NCBI RefSeq assembly: GCF_900105725.1
Contig: NZ_FNLM01000034.1
Location: forward strand, 186,001-250,000
DNA length: 64,000 nt
Reading direction: 5' to 3'
Source: Gordonia westfalica
GTDB taxonomy: Bacteria; Actinomycetota; Actinomycetes; Mycobacteriales; Mycobacteriaceae
This document shows, in pieces, positions 3,998 to 64,000 of the stretch (within the stretch, counting starts at the first letter, position 1; every line of letters begins with the position of its first letter). The position numbers and the translations under genes were made by a program. The notes beneath the pieces were generated by a model. That model had not been told where the DNA came from. It saw only the letters and a list, made by a program, of their open reading frames with translations, and searched no databases.

Positions 3998-4154
3998 CGA
4001 GGGAGATCCGACGCTGCCTGAGCTCTCCGTCTCGACCGAACTCGCAGTCCGAGTTCGACCCGGCCTGAGCGGTACTGGAGTGTCCCCATAGACTTTCCGG
4101 CAGCCGGCGCCTGCTCACGGCCGCCGAAAGGGTGACGAGCGTGGAGGCTGGCGT

Positions 4155-4988
4155 ATGGCGGAGACCGGTAGAAGATTGTCGTGGGTCGTGGCTCTGGCGA
4201 TCGTTGTCGGCCTGATCATCGCCTACGTCTCCGTGCTGGTGGTCTACGCAAAAGGCGGAACCGATGACGGTGCGGATGCGAGTAAGCCGGCGGCGAACGG
4301 CGTCGTGGTGTACCTCGACATCAACACGGTCAACGGCGCCGACTTCGAGGTCGCCGGCACCGTCTCAGTTGATGCCGGTGGTGATCTGCTCGACGGTCGA
4401 GGAGACCTGAAACAGGATCTGACCGTCGATGTTTCACCGATGGTCTCCGATACCGAACTGACTTTCCCCGCGGGTACTCGCCCGGGGGTTCTGCCGGTGT
4501 CGTTGTACAGCGACGGCGACATCCGGCTCTGGCCGTTCGACAGATACGTCGCGGAGTCGGTGACGGTGAAGGCGTTCGGTCCGAACGACGCGGAGTTGGC
4601 GACCGAGGTCGTGCTGATCGACTCGCTGATCGGCTGGGACATCAAAGCGGGGGACACCGTCGCCGACGGGAAGGCGTTCCCGGTCACCTCATCCAGGGCG
4701 GCCGCATCCCTGGCCTTTGATCTCGCGTTGTGCGCGATGCTGGTCGTTCTGCCGATCTGCACCCTGTTCGTCTCGATCCAGACGGTCCGCCACCGCAAGG
4801 CGTTTCAGCCCCCGATGGTGACCTGGTTCGCGGTGATGCTGTTTGCCGTGCTACCCCTGCGCAACATCTTCCCCGGTTCGCCTCCGTTCGGATCATGGGT
4901 CGACTATTCGGTGGTTCTCTGGGTGCTCGGCGGTCTCGTCGCGTCGCTCGCGCTGTATGTCGTCGCCTGGTGGAAACAAGCTCCCTGA
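4155..4988 (+). CDS. DUF4436 family membrane protein
   Basis: A 277-residue protein with one N-terminal transmembrane helix (residues about 9-31), an extracytoplasmic beta-rich domain of about 155 residues, and three C-terminal helices. The motif LWPFDRY in the middle of the outer domain and the helix block ending near LPLRNIFPGSPPFGSWVDY are typical of DUF4436 proteins of mycobacteria and relatives. No enzymatic function is known for the family. It stands alone, with about 160 bases of non-coding sequence before it. Confidence 0.8.
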   Translation: MAETGRRLSWVVALAIVVGLIIAYVSVLVVYAKGGTDDGADASKPAANGVVVYLDINTVNGADFEVAGTVSVDAGGDLLDGRGDLKQDLTVDVSPMVSDTELTFPAGTRPGVLPVSLYSDGDIRLWPFDRYVAESVTVKAFGPNDAELATEVVLIDSLIGWDIKAGDTVADGKAFPVTSSRAAASLAFDLALCAMLVVLPICTLFVSIQTVRHRKAFQPPMVTWFAVMLFAVLPLRNIFPGSPPFGSWVDYSVVLWVLGGLVASLALYVVAWWKQAP

Positions 4989-52409: not shown

Positions 52410-53491
52410 CCGAGACGACCACCCATCCCGCTGTTGTCGGCAAGCTCTCGACCCTGGACCGGTTCCTGCCGGTGTGGATCGGTGTGGCGATGGTCGCCGG
52501 CCTGCTCCTGGGCCGGATGATCCCCGGCCTCGGTGACGCACTCGGGGCCGTCGAACTCGACGGCATCTCCCTGCCGATCGCGCTCGGTCTGCTGATCATG
52601 ATGTACCCGGTCCTCGCGAAGGTGCGCTACGACCGCCTCGACACCGTCACCGGCGACCGCAAACTCCTCCTCGGCTCCCTGCTGCTGAACTGGGTCCTCG
52701 GCCCGGCGCTGATGTTCGCGCTCGCCTGGATCTTCCTGCCCGACCTGCCCGAATACCGGACCGGTCTGATCATCGTCGGCCTCGCGCGCTGCATCGCGAT
52801 GGTCATCATCTGGAACGACCTCGCCTGCGGCGACCGCGAAGCGGCCGCCGTCCTGGTCGCGATCAACTCCGTCTTCCAGGTAATCATGTTCGCCGTCCTC
52901 GGCTGGTTCTACCTCTCGGTGCTGCCCGGCTGGCTGGGCCTCGAACAGACCACCATCGACACCTCACCGTGGCAGATCGCCAAGTCCGTACTGATCTTCC
53001 TCGGCATCCCGCTGCTCGCCGGGTTCCTCACCCGCCACTTCGGGGAGAAGGCCAAGGGCCGCGAGTGGTACGAGGAGCGGTTCCTGCCGAAGATCGGCCC
53101 CTGGGCGCTCTACGGCCTGCTGTTCACCATCGTGATCCTCTTCGCGCTACAGGGCGACCAGATCACCTCGCAGCCACTCGATGTCGTCCGGATCGCGATC
53201 CCGCTGCTCGCGTACTTCGCGATCATGTGGGGCGGCGGCTACGCACTCGGCGCCGCAATGGGACTGGGCTACGAGCGCACCACCACCCTCGCGTTCACCG
53301 CCGCGGGCAACAACTTCGAGCTCGCCATCGCGGTCGCCATCGCCACCTACGGCGTCACCTCCGGCCAGGCCCTCGCCGGGGTCGTCGGACCGCTGATCGA
53401 GGTCCCCGTCCTCGTCGGCCTGGTCTACGTCTCCCTCGCGCTACGCAAACGCTTCAACCGCACGGACTCTCCCGCACCCATCGCTTCGTGA
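52406..53491 (+). CDS. acr3: Acr3 arsenite efflux permease
   Basis: A 361-residue protein with ten membrane helices. C129 in GLARCIAMVIIWN is the conserved Cys needed for arsenite transport in Acr3, and NNFELAIAVAIATYG is the second hallmark. It begins at GTG 52406, overlapping arsR by four bases. It exports As(III), with or without the ArsA ATPase. Confidence 0.93.
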   Translation: MTETTTHPAVVGKLSTLDRFLPVWIGVAMVAGLLLGRMIPGLGDALGAVELDGISLPIALGLLIMMYPVLAKVRYDRLDTVTGDRKLLLGSLLLNWVLGPALMFALAWIFLPDLPEYRTGLIIVGLARCIAMVIIWNDLACGDREAAAVLVAINSVFQVIMFAVLGWFYLSVLPGWLGLEQTTIDTSPWQIAKSVLIFLGIPLLAGFLTRHFGEKAKGREWYEERFLPKIGPWALYGLLFTIVILFALQGDQITSQPLDVVRIAIPLLAYFAIMWGGGYALGAAMGLGYERTTTLAFTAAGNNFELAIAVAIATYGVTSGQALAGVVGPLIEVPVLVGLVYVSLALRKRFNRTDSPAPIAS

Positions 53492-53514
53492 CCCGAGAAG
53501 GCCAGGAGACGAAC

Positions 53515-54174
53515 ATGTCCCAGCATGTCGACCGCCATCAGTCCGAACTACTCGTCCCCGAGGCGGTCCTGCGGCGGGCCGCCGAGCATCTCGCCGGCAG
53601 ATACGTCGGGGTCTTCTCCCCGGAAACGGTGGAGCGGACGGTGTTCGAGTCGTACGCCGCGCTCCGCGAGACCGCCACGGTGCACACCCATCTGACGGCG
53701 CTCGCGCCCAGGCTGGCCGCCGAACGCCTCACCGCCCGCGCCCACACCGACGGTTCCGTGGTGAAGACGGCGCCCGAGGTGCTGTTCGTCTGCGCCCACA
53801 ACACCGGCCGCTCGCAGATGGCGGCGGCGCTGCTCGACCACCACAGCGGCGGCCGTGTCCACGTCCATTCGGCGGGCTCGGCCCCGACCGGCGGGATCGA
53901 TCCCGCCGTCCTCGCGGTGATGGCCGAAACCGGAATCGACCTGGCCGCCGCGTATCCCAAGCCGCTGACCGACGAGGTCGTCGCCGTCGCCGACGTGGTG
54001 GTCACCCTGGGCTGCGGCGACGCCTGCCCGGTCCATCCGGGCACACGGTATCTCGACTGGTCGGTACCCGACCCGGAAGGGCAATCGCCGCACATGGTGC
54101 GCGCGATCCGCGACGAGATCGATATTCGTGTCCGCGGCCTGCTCACCGAACTCACCACCACCACCCAGGCCTGA
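53515..54174 (+). CDS. arsC: arsenate reductase (ArsC-type) with N-terminal three-helix domain
   Basis: A 219-residue protein. Residues 1-75 form the three-helix bundle (LRRAAEHLAGRYVGVFSPETVERTVFESY) often fused to arsenate-mycothiol transferases in actinobacteria. The catalytic domain has FVCAHNTGRSQMA and the GCGDACPVHPG motif. AGGAGACGA precedes the ATG at 53515. It is the second of three ArsC proteins and lies in the acr3 operon. Confidence 0.88.
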   Translation: MSQHVDRHQSELLVPEAVLRRAAEHLAGRYVGVFSPETVERTVFESYAALRETATVHTHLTALAPRLAAERLTARAHTDGSVVKTAPEVLFVCAHNTGRSQMAAALLDHHSGGRVHVHSAGSAPTGGIDPAVLAVMAETGIDLAAAYPKPLTDEVVAVADVVVTLGCGDACPVHPGTRYLDWSVPDPEGQSPHMVRAIRDEIDIRVRGLLTELTTTTQA

Positions 54175-54201
54175 CCCCTCCATCTTCCCGAAAGGTTCTC
54201 G

Positions 54202-54633
54202 ATGACCACCGATTCCCCGAACGCCACTCCGTCGGTCCTGTTCGTCTGCGTGCACAACGCCGGCCGCTCCCAGATGGCCGCCGGATTCCTCACCGCGCTG
54301 GCCGGTGACCGGATCGAGGTCCGCTCCGCGGGCAGCGCCCCGGCCGACCAGGTCAACCCCGCCGCGACCCTGGCGATGGCCGAGGTCGGCATCGACATCT
54401 CGACGCAGTCCCCGAAGATCCTCACCGTGGACGCGGTACAGGCCTCCGACGTGGTGATCACGATGGGCTGCGGCGACACGTGCCCGGTCTTCCCCGGAAA
54501 GTCCTACCGCGACTGGGTTCTCGAGGATCCGGCCGGTCAGGGTGTCGACGCGGTCCGCCCGATTCGTGACGAGATCAAGGCGAAGGTCGAGGCGCTGATC
54601 GCAGAACTGACCGCCGAGCCCGCCCGTTCCTGA
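54202..54633 (+). CDS. arsC: arsenate reductase ArsC, low-molecular-weight phosphatase type
   Basis: A 143-residue protein with [13 protein letters not shown] (nucleophile Cys and Arg) and [13 protein letters not shown]. It is related to the previous protein but lacks its N-terminal domain. The ATG follows GAAAGG. The following gene is a thioredoxin reductase, which may supply electrons. Confidence 0.88.
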
Positions 54634-54685
54634 CCGACAACGTCCACCTCTTCGCCCCTGCGGGGGCCGCACGGAAGGCTCCTCA

Positions 54686-55669
54686 TTGAGTACTGACGCG
54701 ACCATCCACGACCTGATCATCGTCGGCTCCGGACCCGCCGGATACACGGCCGGCGTCTACGCCGCCCGCGCGGAGCTCGAGCCCCTGCTCTTCGAGGGCA
54801 CCCAGTTCGGCGGCTCGCTGATGACCACCACCGAGGTGGAGAACTTCCCCGGCTTCCGCGAGGGCATCATGGGCCCGGATCTCATGGACGAGATGCGCGA
54901 GCAGGCCAAGCGTTTCGGCGCGGACATCCGCACCGAGGACGTCGAGGAGATCGAGCTGGACGGCCCGGTCAAGAAGGTCGTCGCGAACGGTGAGACGTAC
55001 TACGCCCGCGCCGTCATTCTTGCGATGGGTGCCGCTGCCCGCTACCTCGGTATCCCGGGGGAGGAGAAGCTCCTCGGCCGCGGCGTCAGCGCCTGCGCCA
55101 CCTGCGACGGCTTCTTCTTCCGCGACCAGGACATCGTCGTGGTCGGCGGCGGCGACTCCGCGATGGAGGAGGCCACCTTCCTGACCAAGTTCGCCCGCAG
55201 CGTCACCCTCGTGCACCGCCGCGAGGAGTTCCGCGCGTCCCGGATCATGCTCGAGCGCGCCAAGGCGAACGAGAAGATCCGCTTCGTCACCAACGCCGAG
55301 CCGGTCGAGGTGCCGGGTGAGAACAGCGTCACCGGCCTGGTGGTCCGCGACACGGTCACCGGCGAGCGGTCCACGCTCGACGTCACCGGCATGTTCGTCG
55401 CCATCGGCCACGACCCGCGCAGCGAGCTCGTCAAGGGCCAGGTCGACGTCGACGCCGCCGGCTACGTCCAGGTGCAGTCGCCGACCACCGCCACCTCCAC
55501 CGAGGGTGTCTTCGCGGCCGGCGACCTGGTCGACCACACCTACCGTCAGGCCATCACCGCGGCCGGCACCGGCTGTGCCGCCGCGATCGACGCCGAGCGC
55601 TGGCTGGCCGACCAGGGGGAGATCACCGAGAACACCCTCGCCGCCGCGGGCGAGCCCGTCACCGTCTGA
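54686..55669 (+). CDS. trxB: thioredoxin-disulfide reductase
   Basis: A 327-residue FAD and NADPH enzyme: FAD site [19 protein letters not shown], redox pair in [15 protein letters not shown] site [15 protein letters not shown] and the FAD-contact [13 protein letters not shown]. It begins at TTG 54686. In arsenic operons a copy of trxB (also called arsT) recycles the thiol that re-reduces ArsC. No thioredoxin gene is next to it. Compared with chromosomal TrxB it is full length. Confidence 0.9.
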
Positions 55670-56830: not shown

Positions 56831-57334
56831 TCATGGTGAGTGGTCCTCGTTGGATTCGAGGAGCAATGCGCCGATGACGAGGACGACGCCGCAGGTGATG
56901 TAGGTGTCGGCGATATTGAAGGTGGCGAACCATCCGGTGTGGAAGTAGTCGGTGACCTTGCCGTCGAGAAGACGGTCGATGACGTTGGCGGCGGCGCCGG
57001 CGACGATCGCGGCGAGCCCGACGGTCTGGATCGGGTGACTGTCCGGTGCGGTACGCCACGCGAACACACTGATCGTGGCGGTGATGGCCGCGGTGGCGGC
57101 AAGAACGACGGCGGTGGGGAGTTGGTCGCCGAGACTGAAAGCGACCCCGGTGTTGTAGGTCAGGCGCAGTTGCAGCAGGCCGAGATCGACGGTCCGACCC
57201 CAGGAAAGAGTGTCGCGTGCAATCGGATCGACGACCAGCGCGATCGCAGCTAAGGCGACGGCGACCGCGACGAGGGTGCGGCGGCCGCGGCGCCACCTGG
57301 CTGAGGTCGAGGTGGTGGGCTCGGCGTAGGTCAT
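56831..57334 (-). CDS. lspA: lipoprotein signal peptidase (LspA), metal-island copy
   Basis: A 167-residue protein with four membrane helices. The catalytic Asp residues are in NVIDR and FNIADTYI, and NTGVAFSL is the usual inner motif. LspA copies are often found beside heavy-metal ATPases (pbrB/C-like in Pb/Cd resistance). Its start overlaps the ATPase stop by four bases (ATGA), so it is translated with it. It probably processes a lipoprotein or affects metal sequestration. Confidence 0.87.
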   Translation of the reverse strand: MTYAEPTTSTSARWRRGRRTLVAVAVALAAIALVVDPIARDTLSWGRTVDLGLLQLRLTYNTGVAFSLGDQLPTAVVLAATAAITATISVFAWRTAPDSHPIQTVGLAAIVAGAAANVIDRLLDGKVTDYFHTGWFATFNIADTYITCGVVLVIGALLLESNEDHSP

Positions 57335-59289
57335 GACCGAGTCCCGGCGATCGGTTCGCGCGTGATCGCCGAGGGTGTCGCTGCGGTGAGGGTTCGGGCG
57401 CGTCCGGCGCGGACGCCGTTGGCGATGACGACGATCTCGGCGACTTCGTGGACGAGGACGACCGCGGCCAGGCCGAGGACACCGAACAGGGCCAGCGGCA
57501 TCAAGACGGTGATGATCGCCAGGGACAGGCCGACGTTCTGCAGCATGATCGTCCGAGACCGGCGCGCGTGGTGCAGCGCCTGAGGTAGGTGGCGCAGGTC
57601 CTCGCCCATCAGAGCGACGTCGGCAGTCTCGATCGCCACGTCGGTTCCTATTGCGCCCATCGCGATACCGAGGTCTGCGGTGGCGAGGGCGGGGGCGTCA
57701 TTTACTCCGTCGCCGACCATCGCGGTCGGTCGCGCAGCGCGGAGGGTTCCGACGATGCGGGCCTTGTCCTCGGGGCGCAGGTCGGCGTGCACTTCGTCGA
57801 TGCCGACGTCGGCGGCCAGGGCGCGGGCGGTGCGGTCGTTGTCGCCGGTGAGCATCGCGACCTGGTAGCCGTCGCGGCGCAGGCCGGCGATCACCTCGTG
57901 TGCCTCGGGGCGGAGTTCATCGCGGACGGCGACCGCCCCAATCACGGTTCCGGCGCGCTCGATCAGGACCGCGGTGGCGCCGGCACGCTGCATCCGTTCG
58001 ATGTCGGCGGTGAGGGGGCCGGGGTCGATCCAGCCGGGTCGACCGAGCCGAACCGGTGCGCCGTCGATGCGGCCGGTCAGGCCCGCGCCGGTCACGGCAT
58101 CGACATCGTCGGCGGGCACGTAGTGGCCGACGGCGGCGAGAATCGCTCGGGCCAGCGGGTGTTCGCTGCGGGCCTCCAACGCCGCGGCCACCGCGAGGAC
58201 GTCGCCGCGGGTGGCGCCGTTAGCGGCGGCGACGTCGATCACGACGGGCTGGTTGCGGGTGAGAGTGCCGGTCTTGTCCAGCGCGACGGTGCGGATGCGG
58301 CCGAGTGCTTCGAGGGCGGCACCGCCCTTGACCAGGACGCCGAGCTTGGACGCGGCGCCGATCGCGGCGACGACCGTCACGGGGATGGCAATCGCCAGCG
58401 CGCACGGTGAGGCGGCGACGAGCACGACGAGGGCGCGTTCGATCCACACCCGCGGATCACCGGCGAGGCTGCCGACTGCGGCGATGACCGCGGCCGCGAC
58501 CATCACGGCCGGGACAAGCGGCTTGGCTATCTTGTCGGCCAGGCGTTGCGCTTCGCCCTTGCGGGACTGCTCGGCCTCGACGATCCGCACGATCTTGGCC
58601 AGCGAGTTGTCTTGCGCGCCAGCGGTGACCTCGACCTCGAGGACTCCGGTGCCGTTGATCGACCCGGCGAACACCTCGTCGCCGGGACCGGCCTCGACGG
58701 GCACCGATTCGCCGGTGATCGCGGAGGTGTCCAGGGCGGTGCGTCCGGTGCGGATGACGCCGTCGGTCGCGATCCGCTCCCCGGGCTTGACGATCATGAT
58801 CTCGCCGAGAGCGAGCTCGGCCGGCGGGACGGTCTCCTCGCGGCCGCCGCGGAGCACCGTGGCGGTGTCCGGGACCAGGGACAACAGGGCCCGCAGGCCG
58901 CGGCGGGTGCGGGTGACCGCGTACTCCTCGAGCCCCTCGCTGATCGCGAACAGGAACGCGAGCATGGCGGCCTCGCCGACCTCGCCGAGCAGCACCGCTC
59001 CGACGGCGGCAATCGTCATCAGCGTGCCGACGCCGATCTTGCCCTTGGCCAGCCTCTTGAGCGTGGACGGGACGAACGTGTAACCCGCCACGATCAGCGC
59101 GGCCGCCTCGAACCCCACAGCGAGCGCATCGGCTCCGCCGGTCACGCGAACGATCAGCGCCGCGACCAGCAGCACGCCGGCCGCGGCGGCGGCGCGGATC
59201 TCGGTGATGTGCCAGAGCTTTTCGGGCTCGTGTTCTTCCTCGCCTTCGGGGCGGGGTTCGTCGTGGCCGCAGCCGCACGCGTCGCTCAT
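57331..59289 (-). CDS. P1B-type heavy-metal ATPase (Cd/Zn/Co/Pb class)
   Basis: A 652-residue ATPase. TGES at 192-195, the transmembrane metal motif SPC (294-296), the phosphorylated D338 in DKTGT and GDGVNDAPAL are all present, and the last helices contain HEVAEIVVIANG. The SPC motif points to the Zn/Co/Cd class rather than copper (CPC). The N-terminus has only a short Cys/His segment (ACGCGHDE), with no HMA domain. Its start overlaps the sensor gene by four bases. Operon: sensor, ATPase, lspA. Confidence 0.9.
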   Translation of the reverse strand: MSDACGCGHDEPRPEGEEEHEPEKLWHITEIRAAAAAGVLLVAALIVRVTGGADALAVGFEAAALIVAGYTFVPSTLKRLAKGKIGVGTLMTIAAVGAVLLGEVGEAAMLAFLFAISEGLEEYAVTRTRRGLRALLSLVPDTATVLRGGREETVPPAELALGEIMIVKPGERIATDGVIRTGRTALDTSAITGESVPVEAGPGDEVFAGSINGTGVLEVEVTAGAQDNSLAKIVRIVEAEQSRKGEAQRLADKIAKPLVPAVMVAAAVIAAVGSLAGDPRVWIERALVVLVAASPCALAIAIPVTVVAAIGAASKLGVLVKGGAALEALGRIRTVALDKTGTLTRNQPVVIDVAAANGATRGDVLAVAAALEARSEHPLARAILAAVGHYVPADDVDAVTGAGLTGRIDGAPVRLGRPGWIDPGPLTADIERMQRAGATAVLIERAGTVIGAVAVRDELRPEAHEVIAGLRRDGYQVAMLTGDNDRTARALAADVGIDEVHADLRPEDKARIVGTLRAARPTAMVGDGVNDAPALATADLGIAMGAIGTDVAIETADVALMGEDLRHLPQALHHARRSRTIMLQNVGLSLAIITVLMPLALFGVLGLAAVVLVHEVAEIVVIANGVRAGRARTLTAATPSAITREPIAGTRS

Positions 59290-59663
59290 GACTTCTCCTC
59301 GGCATCGGTGCCGTAGTTCGGGCACAACGCGACCGCGTTCCCGGTCGCCGCCAGCAGCGTCTCCGCCGAGGCGAGAAGATCCATCAACTCCGGCCGGGCC
59401 AGCGCATAGAACACCTGCCGCCCCTGCGGGCGGCCGGTCACCAGCCCGCAGTCCCGCAGACACGCCACATGCGCCGACACCGTCGACTGCGCCAACCCCA
59501 ACTCGCCGACCAGATCCGCCACCCGAGCCTCACCCGCAGCGAGGCGGCGCACGATCGCCAACCGGGTCCCGTCCGACAGGCTGTGGAACAACGCCACCGC
59601 CGCATCGAGGGTCGAGCCGGTACTCCCGGCTGTCAGGCAACCATCCGCACGATCAATCGTCAT
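59286..59663 (-). CDS. cmtR: CmtR-like Cd/Pb-sensing ArsR-family repressor
   Basis: A 125-residue winged-helix protein. The recognition helix carries HVACLRDCGLV, the C-x3-C pair that binds Cd(II) or Pb(II) in mycobacterial CmtR (C57, C61), and a third Cys occurs in ALCPNYG near the C-terminus, matching C102. It leads the operon with the P-type ATPase and lspA, so metal should switch on the pump. It is divergent from the Cys-rich peptide gene. Confidence 0.85.
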   Translation of the reverse strand: MTIDRADGCLTAGSTGSTLDAAVALFHSLSDGTRLAIVRRLAAGEARVADLVGELGLAQSTVSAHVACLRDCGLVTGRPQGRQVFYALARPELMDLLASAETLLAATGNAVALCPNYGTDAEEKS

Positions 59664-59722
59664 ACGGCGATGATAACCGATGAACTACGATGTTAGATGG
59701 GGGTTGGAGATCAGGTGAGGAC

Positions 59723-59830
59723 ATGGAGAACTGGCTGACGAATCTGCAGGCCTGGTGGACCTGTCAGGTAATGATGGCGAACGGAACATGTGAGATGTGC
59801 GCGTGCACGCCGATGACGGGCTGCTGCTAG
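59723..59830 (+). CDS. 35-residue Cys-rich peptide, possible metal-binding peptide
   Basis: GGTGAGGAC precedes an ATG at 59723, and the frame ends at TAG 59828-59830. The product begins MENWLTNLQAWWTCQVM and ends NGTCEMCACTPMTGCC: six Cys in 35 residues, with CEMCAC and CC. The spacing recalls small metallothioneins, though I know of no named family. It is divergent from the CmtR-like gene (59 bases between starts), so it may share its Cd/Pb control. The 3' end is copied in the tandem repeat downstream. Confidence 0.6.
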   Translation: MENWLTNLQAWWTCQVMMANGTCEMCACTPMTGCC

Positions 59831-60326
59831 GTCGCATGTTGCTTCGGCCGTGAACCCGCTCGTGTCGCCTTCGGTGCAGTGCTGCGCTGTGGGCGGAACG
59901 AGCGGGCATCTTTGCCCTCACTCGCGAGGTCACTGATCGGGTCGGTTTCCGCCAATTCGACATTTCGACGATGCTCGAACGCACGGTCCGCATACGCGGA
60001 CTGAGTGTCTGACGTCAGTGTCGCCGCAGCTCCGCCTGGCGGAGCGCCTCGACGAAACATGTGAGATGTGCGCGTGCACGCCGATGACGGGCTGCTGCTA
60101 GGTCGCATGTTGCTTCGGCCGTGAACCCGCTCGTGTCGCCTTCGGTGCAGTGCTGCGCTGTGGGCGGAACGAGCGGGCATCTTTGCCCTCACTCGCGAGG
60201 TCACTGATCGGGTCGGTTTCCGCCAATTCGACATTTCGACGATGCTCGAACGCACGGTCCGCATACGCGGACTGAGTGTCTGACGTCAGTGTCGCCGCAG
60301 CTCCGCCTGGCGGAGCGCCTCGACGA
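59785..60326. repeat. perfect 271-bp tandem direct duplication
   Basis: 59785-60055 and 60056-60326 are, as far as I can compare by eye, identical and directly adjacent. Each unit holds the last 45 bases of the Cys-rich peptide gene, the intergenic sequence and the last 41 bases of the thioredoxin-like gene. After duplication one full copy of each gene remains: the peptide gene at the left and the thioredoxin-like gene at the right. Identity means recent origin, or an assembly error. Confidence 0.88.
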
Positions 60327-60603
60327 GGTCGGGAACTGTCGGTGCTCCGGCGGGGCCGTTGGCGGTGTGGTAGACCCTGCAGGTCAGTCCCACCCCGGTG
60401 GTCGGCCCGAACGCGTCGACCCGGTCGATGCGGATGGTGGGCGATCCCGGAAACGCTTCGCGTTCTGCCTCGTCCTGGGTGTCGATCGCCCGGAGCACGA
60501 TCGGCGTTCCGGCGTTCCCGGTCGCGGCGAGGGCCTCGGCGATCTGGTCCCGGGCGATCTGCCAGTTGGGGCAGCCGTCGAAGTAGAGCAGCTCGATGTC
60601 CAC
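60286..60603 (-). CDS. thioredoxin-like (DF-family selenoprotein-like) protein
   Basis: A 105-residue protein starting at GTG 60603. VDIELLYFDGCPNWQIARDQ has a single Cys in DGCPNW where a thioredoxin CxxC would be, and FPGSPTIRIDRVD is the cis-Pro loop. Such proteins are common in mercury and arsenic islands of actinobacteria. It may bind or reduce metalloids. Its 3' 41 bases lie in the second copy of the tandem repeat. It ends the operon with the ArsR-acetyltransferase gene, overlapping none; the gap is 5 bases. Confidence 0.7.
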   Translation of the reverse strand: MDIELLYFDGCPNWQIARDQIAEALAATGNAGTPIVLRAIDTQDEAEREAFPGSPTIRIDRVDAFGPTTGVGLTCRVYHTANGPAGAPTVPDLVEALRQAELRRH

Positions 60604-60608
60604 GACGG

Positions 60609-61514
60609 TCAGAACGCCGCGCAGCTGGTGGCGGCCTCGGTCTCGGATCGTCGTTCGAGCAGGACGGTGTCGCGCCACTCGCCGCCGAGTTGGGCGATGC
60701 GTTCGCGGACCCCGACGGTGCGGAACCCGGCGGAGTGGTGCAGCGCGATCGCGGCCCGGTTCTCCGGGAAGACCGAGGTCTGTAGCGTCCACAGGCCGGC
60801 CTGGTCGGCGGCGATCACCTGCGTTCGGAGCAGGGCCTTGCCGACGCCGCGGCCGCGCCAGCCTTCGGCGACACAGACCGCGCTTTCTGCGACCCCGCGG
60901 AAGTGCTCGTGGGGCGACGCGGGGGTTAGGGCGGCCCAGCCGACGACGGTGCCGTCGATCTCGGCGACCCACCGGTGATCCGGGAGCCACTGGGTGTCCA
61001 GCGTCTTCCGAGGCGGCACCTCGGTGGCGAAGGTGGTGAGACCGGTGGCGATGGCGTCGCTGTAGATGCGGCGCACGGCGGGCCAGTCCTCGTCGGTCAT
61101 CGGTCGAACGGTCACGTCGCCGGGGAGATCGTCCGGGCAGCACGGGCGCTGGGTGAGCAGGCCCATGACTGCGTCGGCCGCGCTCGGCAGGCCGGTGCAG
61201 CACGCCGGGTTGACCACCACGACGGAGCTGGTGCCGTCCTTGTGGACGGTCACGAAGCCGACGTCGGCGAGCTTGCGGACGTGGTGCGAGATGGTCGGCT
61301 GGCCGATGCCCAGCCGTGTGGCCAGCTCCCCGATGCTGACGCCGGCCGGGGTGCTGGCGACCTCGTGGAGAAGCCGGACACGGGTCGGTTCGGCCAGGCA
61401 GGCGAACCAACCGGCGTAGGTGGCCGCGTCCTCGGCCGCCAAACCGGCCGACGGATGCCCGGCACCTGCACTCGGCGGGACACGGCACTCGGCGGACTCA
61501 GTGGACGTAACCAT
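60609..61514 (-). CDS. ArsR regulator fused to a GNAT acetyltransferase (ArsN-like)
   Basis: A 301-residue protein. Residues 25-100 are an ArsR winged helix (AEPTRVRLLHEVAS, LGIGQPTISHHVRKLADVGFV) followed by metal-type Cys pairs (NPACCTGL, RPCCPDD). Residues 130-290 are a GNAT domain (VRPMTDEDWPAVRRIYSDAI, then GRGVGKALLRTQVIAADQ, then FPENRAAIALHHSAGF), close to phosphinothricin-type acetyltransferases; ArsN relatives detoxify arsinothricin or other arsenicals. The fusion would combine sensing and detoxification. The ATG at 61514 is preferred because the operator starts just upstream. Confidence 0.82.
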   Translation of the reverse strand: MVTSTESAECRVPPSAGAGHPSAGLAAEDAATYAGWFACLAEPTRVRLLHEVASTPAGVSIGELATRLGIGQPTISHHVRKLADVGFVTVHKDGTSSVVVVNPACCTGLPSAADAVMGLLTQRPCCPDDLPGDVTVRPMTDEDWPAVRRIYSDAIATGLTTFATEVPPRKTLDTQWLPDHRWVAEIDGTVVGWAALTPASPHEHFRGVAESAVCVAEGWRGRGVGKALLRTQVIAADQAGLWTLQTSVFPENRAAIALHHSAGFRTVGVRERIAQLGGEWRDTVLLERRSETEAATSCAAF

Positions 61515-62954: not shown

Positions 62955-64000
62955 ATGACGGACACCAAGGCCCCGCCGCAGACCGACACCCTTCCCGCGG
63001 CTGGTCTGCGGCGGGTCTTGGCGATCCTGTGCCTGACGGAGATCACCAGCTGGGGCATCCTCTACTACGCCTTCCCCGTGCTGTCGGTGTCCATCGCGGA
63101 CGACACCGGCTGGTCCCTACAGACGATCATGGCCGCGTTCTCGATCGGCCAGCTCGCCGCCGCATTCACCGGCATCCCCGTCGGCCGCATCATCGACCGC
63201 ATCGGCCCGCGCGCCATCATGACCGCCGGCTCCGTACTCGCCGTGCCCGCACTGCTCCTCATCGCGACCGCACACAACCTGCCGACGTTCTACGCCGGCT
63301 GGATCCTCGCCGGCATCGCGATGGGCGGCGTTCTCTACCCGCCCGCGTTCGCGGCGCTGACCCGCTGGTACGGCGACAGCTACGTCAAGGCGCTGATGAT
63401 CCTCACCCTCGCCGCGGGCCTGGCGAGCACCGTCTTCGCCCCGCTCGCCGCGACGCTGGTCGAGCGAACCGACTGGCGCGCCACCTATCTCATCCTCGCG
63501 GCGATCCTCGCCGTCATCACCATCCCCGCCCACCTGTGGGGCTGCGCGGGCGCTGGCCGCACCCACCGGCACCGGCGCACGGAGACGCGGCCGATCACCG
63601 CGACGCCTCCCGCAGCCCCGCGTTCCTCGCCCTCGTCGCCGCCTTGAGCCTCGGCGCGTTCGCCGCCTTCGCTGGCGTGTTCAACCTCGTGCCGCTGCTC
63701 ATCGAACAAGGCTTCTCCCCGTCTCTGGCGGCTTTGACCCTCGGCCTGAGTGGGGCGGGACAGCTCCTCGGCCGCATCGGCTACCTGCCCCTCGCGGCCC
63801 GTACCTCGGCTCGCAGCCGTGCCATCGGTGTTCTCGTCGCGACCGCCGTCAGCACCGCACTACTGGGTGTCGTGACCACGGTCGTGACCCTGATCACCGT
63901 CGCGATCGGCGCCGGACTGATCCGTGGACTGTTCACCCTCGTCCAAGCCACCGCCATCACCGACCGGTGGGGCGCCGTCCACTACGGCCGCCTCAACGGC
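62955..64000 (+). pseudogene. MFS transporter with a frameshift; runs off the window
   Basis: The first frame (62955-63647) gives the first six helices of an MFS transporter (TEITSWGILYYAFPVLSVSI, and PVGRIIDRIGPRAIMTAG between helices 2 and 3). At about 63540 (after CACCTGTGGGG) the sensible sequence moves to the -1 frame and continues FLALVAALSLGAFAAFAGVF to the window end. A missing base explains it. The gene would otherwise be an organoarsenical or metal exporter; the substrate is unknown. The frameshift may be a sequencing error. Confidence 0.75.

Follow-up and report, generated by a model that had tools for sequence, protein, structure and literature searches.

The stretch of Gordonia westfalica DNA analysed here (64,000 nt, further referred to as the window) carries a gene for a 35-residue Cys/Met peptide, located divergently from a CmtR-like repressor gene. 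Judged by its relatives and by the substitutions that separate them, it is a genuine conserved gene of Rhodococcus and related bacteria that annotation often misses. It was found in two regulatory contexts, and its most likely product, as read from sequence and neighbours, is a metal-inducible peptide sequestering Cu(I) or Cd(II)/Pb(II). Related loci are denoted below by L numbers and genomes by G numbers.

The peptide gene and its surroundings in the window

Translation from the ATG at 59723 yields MENWLTNLQAWWTCQVMMANGTCEMCACTPMTGCC, the stop codon occupying positions 59828–59830. Six Cys residues are present, among them those of CEMCAC and of the terminal CC. The earlier note on this DNA had described exactly such a frame at 59723..59830 (35 residues, six Cys, CEMCAC, CC), and both translation and coordinates agree with it. 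The ribosome binding site that it had considered good was also confirmed as GGTGAGG at 59714–59720, ahead of ATG 59723 and conserved in relatives. An alternative in-frame start, ATG 59690, would give a 46-residue product and is absent from L006 and L053. Since this ATG is not conserved there, whereas GGTGAGGAC-ATG is kept in the alignment of relatives, 59723 is the likelier start. The features of the region are listed in the table.

Table. Features of the window discussed in the text, in order of position
Feature	Position	Strand	Evidence or remark
Two adjacent low-molecular-weight arsenate reductase-like stretches and a thioredoxin reductase-like gene	52969-54633, 54686-55669	+	by eye
LspA (signal peptidase II) type gene	56831-57334	-	accompanies the CmtR-ATPase pair in many loci
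Cd-family P1B ATPase	57331..59289	-	downstream of the repressor, overlaps its end; start read from sequence
CmtR-like ArsR/SmtB metal-sensing repressor	59286..59663	-	HTH_5, HTH_metalloreg NF033788, best PDB 2jsc
Shared divergent control region, 59 nt	59664..59722	.	CGATGATAA / CGATGTTAG elements
GGTGAGG ribosome-binding site	59714..59720	+	sequence; kept in L006, L051, L053, L055 (alignment)
Cys/Met peptide gene, 35 residues	59723..59830, stop included	+	translation, relatives, mainly synonymous changes
Tandem duplication, 271 bp	59781..60322 (59781-60051 / 60052-60322)	.	repeats the peptide tail
Hairpin directly downstream of the peptide gene, where transcription may end	59855..59906	+	fold z -2.98
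DF-family (seleno)protein relative	60286-60612	-	63.4 bits, cut-off 70; beside the metal island
ArsR-type HTH fused to GNAT acetyltransferase	60609-61514	-	beside the metal island

The downstream hairpin is present also in L006 and L055, with covariation not above that of column shuffles, while the sequence of L053 diverges from the window past the peptide stop, where the hairpin sits. A scan for sigma-70 promoters and terminators, the latter defined by a T-run, gave no match, the hairpin included. The 271-bp tandem duplication begins within the peptide ORF; the first copy of the tail is intact and the second is incomplete. Locus L051, which comes from another genome and is otherwise 99.9% identical, has a single copy of this unit, and the duplication is either genuine or an artefact of assembly.

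The ATG of the peptide gene and that of the repressor gene (59663) are separated by 59 nt. The repressor scores 87.2 bits against HTH_metalloreg NF033788 (cut-off 55) and 63.8 bits against the CmtR equivalog NF047906, under its cut-off of 150, and therefore it is named only CmtR-like here. Its best solved relative is CmtR from Mycobacterium tuberculosis (2jsc), and the CxxxC pair is present (ACLRDCGL aligned to SCLRGCGL of 2jsc), which we take to be C57/C61 of CmtR. The ATPase scores 526 bits against the Cd-family model TIGR01512 (cut-off 313.5) and 393.9, slightly below the cut-off of 397, against the Cu-family model TIGR01511; hence the family models favour Cd as its probable substrate, other metals still being possible. 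A control region common to a CmtR-like repressor and a metal ATPase operon, as suggested earlier, was thereby found: the 59-nt gap, the ArsR/SmtB gene and the P1B ATPase are all in place.

The LspA-type gene occurs with the CmtR-ATPase pair also in L006, L009, L051, L052, L054-L060, L062 and L069. The arsenic genes recognised by eye (52969-55669) adjoin the cadmium genes. An MFS-like frame at 62955-63650 stops early and the coding-like sequence seems, by eye, to go on in another frame, a possible frameshift.

Conservation, selection and anatomy of the peptide family

The gene status of the frame was accepted because it is conserved across relatives, not because of its Cys count. At least six Cys were found in 2 of 385 window ORFs of 25–60 aa, and in 4 of 570 when the reversed window served as control, so that the number of Cys taken by itself has no significance. 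When Cys and Met were counted together, the 46-aa form of the peptide frame was the top window ORF with 11, the runner-up having 8.

With tblastn, matches to the peptide were obtained in 25 plasmid records (23 from Rhodococcus, one from Prescottella, the decayed L007, and one from Nonomuraea, spurious), and the sequence was examined for 14 of them. Met-rich members used as queries matched three records and one record. The low-complexity filter probably hid Met-rich matches, and therefore the plasmid counts are lower bounds. An annotated feature lay under the best match place in none of the 25 records, which is a weak sign of missed annotation given that the PLSDB gene table is incomplete. Profile search of the bacterial family of the window gave matches in 24 of 401 genomes and 8 of 31 genera, including the spurious G130 and the decayed G162; the window's own genus, Gordonia, had the peptide in 2 of 59 genomes. 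No match outside that family was found in the samples of the order (397 genomes, 2 matches) and of the phylum (396 genomes, 1 match). A pattern search of genome contigs produced 21 matches, six of which were confirmed, in Skermania, Williamsia and four Rhodococcus. Of 167 candidates in the protein database, 26 are relatives at E up to 1. They are without Pfam domains, and three bear a name, in each case "hypothetical" or "uncharacterized". The viral collection gave no match.

Two candidate matches, Nonomuraea L020 and L042/L070 of G130, were rejected as spurious, having no matching short frame. Decayed-looking copies are L007 and L040/L068; L007 was used in one alignment, A1, and all alignments were made without L040/L068 and L042/L070.

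The reading frame is kept under selection at the protein level. Substitutions pooled over six pairs, hand-picked from 17, gave pS 0.28, pN 0.055 and pN/pS 0.195, and owing to this choice the Fisher p-value for them carries little weight; for single pairs pN/pS ranged from 0.10 to 0.63, and one pair was identical. The earlier note had suggested an unrecognised metallothionein or metal-delivery peptide and named conservation of the frame and the Cys pattern in syntenic loci as a check. At the level of sequence this check supports its reading: beside cmtR, loci L006, L055, L009 and L052 preserve the frame, Cys14, Cys23, Cys26 and the terminal CC. Exceptions beside cmtR are L053, which has no Cys26, and L007, which looks decayed; together with L040/L068, they indicate that the peptide is dispensable in places.

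Invariant positions in the 48 aligned rows (decayed copies excluded) are Q9, C14, M17, G21 and M31; N7, A10, W11, M18, M25 and C26 are nearly invariant. The family signature, defined from alignments A3 and A4, consists of a first half like NLQxWWxCQxMM (NLQAWWxCQxMM), followed by G and [DEQ]MC, and the window peptide fits it; L009/L052 have GTC where the signature has EMC. The second half is variable, usually with at least one MC unit followed by MM, and ends with CC in 17 of the 42 distinct members. The member from Williamsia has 53 residues with four DMC units. Overall, the 42 members contain 12.3% Cys, 25.4% Met, 1.2% Lys plus Arg and no Tyr; two of them have only two Cys and 13 only three. 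Between one and three Trp were counted in the members that were read.

AlphaFold, run on 25 rows (the window peptide and 24 of the 26 database proteins, all but P0015 and P0027, which are longer), predicted a single helix at residues 2–20; the tail was open apart from a short turn, and the mean pLDDT was 67. The window peptide matched no Pfam family and no NCBIfam model at E up to 10. Searching the 48 members against Pfam at E up to 1 retrieved no metallothionein profile; the only weak matches were to laminin-EGF (three members) and thioesterase (one), and these few matches are meaningless. Neither the family profile nor the window peptide matched PDB.

Two genomic contexts and their operator-like elements

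Further analysis covered 34 tabulated loci, one of which, L070, is spurious. Not all of them are independent: L051 is a repeat of the window, and the members of each of the groups L056-L060, L009/L052 and L014/L054 resemble one another. A repressor gene of one of two types lies beside the peptide in 31 of them. In eight loci (the window, L006, the decayed L007, L009, L051, L052, L053 and L055) the peptide is divergent from a CmtR-like gene. In 23 it is divergent from a repressor of the BlaI/MecI/CopY type, accompanied in all of these except L062 (22/23) by a protease annotated as M56. Loci L011 and L064 have neither repressor nearby. The peptide and the repressor are separated by IS256 in L016 and by a DtxR-like gene in L014, L015 and L054.

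The repressor of the sister loci scores 82.2 bits against Penicillinase_R (cut-off 22.6) and 28.3 bits against CopY_TcrY (cut-off 121.95). The L010 repressor contains no Cys and therefore no CxC metal site. Its partner annotated as M56 passes the Pfam cut-off for M48, not that for M56.

Genes located downstream on the same strand in the 23 BlaI-type loci are TlpA/CcdA (9), CopC (3) and MerR-type (6), with no reference gene in the other five. In L010, L013, L016, L018, L065 and L067 an LpqS-type gene and a cysteine-synthase gene lie on the side of the repressor, and an MFS gene is annotated beyond them in L010, L013 and L018. The LpqS-type protein of L010, the copy that was tested, passes the LpqS model with 115.7 bits (cut-off 35); gene order suggests that the cysteine synthase is CysK2-like. 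The neighbours of L019 have CopC/CopD domains. In M. tuberculosis, lpqS, cysK2, Rv0849 and the metallothionein MymT share the copper-responsive RicR regulon, as stated in PMC10470581. These associations suggest a possible tie of the BlaI-type loci to copper. Overall, a metal gene of the Cd, As, Cu or MerR type was recognisable in 28 of the 34 loci, the reference genes for this count having been chosen from the same loci; it was not recognised in L011, L017, L063, L064, L068 and L070, among which L017, L063 and L068 are BlaI/M56 loci with no metal gene in the locus table.

We also examined how often each repressor gene occurs with the peptide. By tblastn, the peptide lies beside cmtR in 3 of 32 plasmid records with a similar cmtR region, one of the three being decayed; 30 of these 32 were among the matches listed, and the other two are, by genus counts, from Gordonia, a genus with no plasmid tblastn match. 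No peptide was found by profile at the cmtR loci L008, L077 and L078, and it seems to be missing from the majority of cmtR loci. The same BlaI was found in 35 Rhodococcus plasmid records, 22 at identity of at least 68% and 13 at 47.7%. The peptide is located within about 1.7 kb in 21 of the former, CP070615 being counted through its genome copy, and is absent from CP130956 (L071). Near the 13 BlaI genes at 47.7% no peptide was seen by tblastn, nor in L076 by profile; the nine mycobacterial records gave none by tblastn, and four of them none by profile.

An operator-like core is present at the peptide promoters of the BlaI type. It is part of an imperfect palindrome ahead of the peptide, best in L015 (CATCTACTATCTACGTACGTAGACAGTAGATG). 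Of 20 non-CmtR upstream regions, 17 contain an exact copy of the core CTATCTACGTACG and that of L012 a copy with a single mismatch; the core was not seen upstream in L011 or L064, both of which have no BlaI nearby. A scan of whole genomes of eight hosts for exact sites found nine cores. Eight sit 52–69 nt before a peptide ATG, and one falls within a long coding frame. These promoters had supplied the pattern, so that finding it there is expected by construction; what is new is its rarity elsewhere. Loci combining the BlaI/M56 regulators with the palindromic core at the peptide promoter are L010, L012-L019, L061, L063 and L065-L069. The BlaI/M56 pair is possibly an uncharacterised copper-responsive system of Rhodococcus plasmids.

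At loci of the CmtR type, the elements CGATGATAA and CGATGTTAG occupy the short intergenic gap. Similar elements precede cmtR with no peptide beside it in L008, L014, L015 and L077, and therefore the peptide may be a later addition to a cmtR promoter that was already in place. The repeats may serve cmtR alone.

The composition of the peptide was compared between the two types, decayed and duplicate copies being left out. The Cys/Met ratio is 1.0–1.5 in all five CmtR-type members and 0.33–0.83 in 15 of 16 BlaI-type members, L062 having 1.0. BlaI-type members with CmtR or CadA genes in the locus (L012 via L056-L060, L014/L054, L015, L062, L069) have ratios of 0.58–1.0, and the remaining 11 have 0.33–0.43; among the latter is L067, in which a distant P-type ATPase, 42% identical to CadA, lies 5.6 kb away. 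This split was made post hoc and could also stem from shared ancestry; it fits a putative preference for Cd/Pb versus Cu(I).

Proposed function, alternatives and related systems

We consider it probable that the peptide is a small soft-metal-binding, metallothionein-like protein which is induced via the divergent metal repressor and holds metal until its export by the ATPase. The gene would be switched on by that repressor, in the window the CmtR-like protein, which probably leaves DNA upon binding Cd(II)/Pb(II). Once translated, and located in the cytosol, the peptide would buffer free metal with its Cys/Met tail, joined to the short N-terminal Trp-containing helix, and the P-type ATPase would then receive and export the metal it holds. 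The sisters located ahead of TlpA-CcdA or CopC-CopD genes, presumably repressed by the adjacent BlaI, would perform the same task mainly for Cu(I).

Metallothioneins are small Cys-rich proteins with few or no aromatic residues, which bind metal via thiolate clusters. Members of this family are small and Cys-rich, but they bear Trp and are rich in Met, and two or three Cys, as in some members, are few for a metallothionein. We know of no metallothionein feature resembling the N-terminal half of the NLQAWWxCQ type, and the conservation of this half suggests that there may be a partner.

Such a partner is central to the main rival explanation, a metal-delivery chaperone carrying Cu(I)/Cd(II) to the P-type ATPase, TlpA/CcdA, CopC/CopD or cuproenzyme assembly and docking by its NLQAWW helix. 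The stronger conservation of the N-terminal half compared with the tail, the single predicted helix, the TlpA-CcdA or CopC genes downstream on the same strand in 12 of the 23 BlaI-type loci and the few ligands of some members agree with delivery. Nevertheless we regard it as doubtful: the neighbours vary from locus to locus (CadA, TlpA, MerR, CopC, ArsA) with no single partner among them, no chaperone profile or solved structure was matched by sequence, and the helix model, given its mean pLDDT, is weak.

A regulatory leader or translation-arrest peptide, whose Cys/Met codons would respond to the amino-acid or metal-thiol status and regulate the genes that follow, is improbable. Cys and Met codons do cluster at the end of the peptide, and the gap to TlpA can be short in the BlaI type (in L010 the peptide stop is at 4111 and the TlpA start at 4160). 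However, a leader role is unlikely because the next recognised downstream gene is on the opposite strand in the window, L009, L052 and L062 and because a hairpin follows the peptide stop in the window; moreover, the N-terminal amino acids are conserved to the same degree as the Cys positions. Even less credit is given to a membrane-active or toxin-like peptide, or an antagonist of the repressor (anti-CmtR/anti-BlaI), that would be in metal loci by coincidence. The Trp-Trp pair with the hydrophobic Met run and the repressor gene adjoining the peptide in almost all loci could be read so, but in the three members computed the hydrophobic moment of the helix is low (0.16–0.20) and the mean hydrophobicity modest, and the neighbouring repressors belong to two unrelated families, neither being near L011 and L064. 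Finally, a chance ORF inside a conserved promoter region, which the shortness of the frame and the frequency of six-Cys ORFs in the window and its reversed control would allow, is barely credible given the family-wide protein conservation, the pooled pN/pS, the occurrence of the peptide under two unrelated promoters and the divergence of the L053 flank after the stop.

Retaining the metallothionein-like reading, we tentatively extend it to the whole family, which might be a new, mobile set of very small metal-binding peptides, each combining a conserved Trp-containing helix with a tail whose MC repeats can expand. Swaps of promoters and neighbours would have retuned the ligands, Met-rich for Cu(I) with the BlaI/M56 operator and Cys-rich for Cd(II)/Pb(II) with CmtR and CadA.

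Among known systems, MymT is similar in being short, actinobacterial and Cys-rich, but has no detectable sequence relation to the family. The window peptide did not match the MymT equivalog model NF052418 (80 bits) at E up to 10, and hhalign gave the family a probability of 0.1%; a MymT sequence, used as the control of this search, scored 99.6. Unlike the peptide family, the MymT sequence used has no Trp and no MC repeats. The LpqS- and cysteine-synthase-type neighbours at some peptide loci recall the copper regulon of MymT as outlined in PMC10470581; its regulator, according to PMC10961391, is RicR, versus BlaI or CmtR for the peptide family. PMC10470581 also reports that socAB was added by hand. 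The copper-induced SocAB of the M. tuberculosis RicR regulon are likewise small metal-regulated ORFs overlooked by annotation, under a different regulator.

The smtA-smtB pair of Synechococcus has the same layout, a Cys-rich metal peptide beside an ArsR/SmtB repressor. These two genes are divergent, and SmtA is a larger, folded Zn/Cd metallothionein; the peptide described here differs in having no Pfam metallothionein match. The smt pair is named in PMC4353254. The repressor of the sister loci belongs to the superfamily of CopY/TcrY and BlaI/MecI, whose site is the palindrome TACANNTGTA according to PMC7253601. The putative site at the peptide promoters is also palindromic, but its core CTACGTACGTAG resembles TACANNTGTA without an exact fit; the L010 repressor differs from CopY in the missing CxC metal site. 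No earlier description of this Cys/Met peptide family was recognised in the titles and abstract openings of the literature matches listed.

Thus, the metal-resistance DNA of Rhodococcus and its relatives harbours a conserved gene that annotation often leaves out, or calls "hypothetical" where it bears a name, and the BlaI/M56 regulators of Rhodococcus plasmids gain a candidate target promoter. If the peptide binds metal, it would represent a metallothionein-like class outside the searched profiles, whose natural Met-rich and Cys-rich versions would allow a direct comparison of metal preference.
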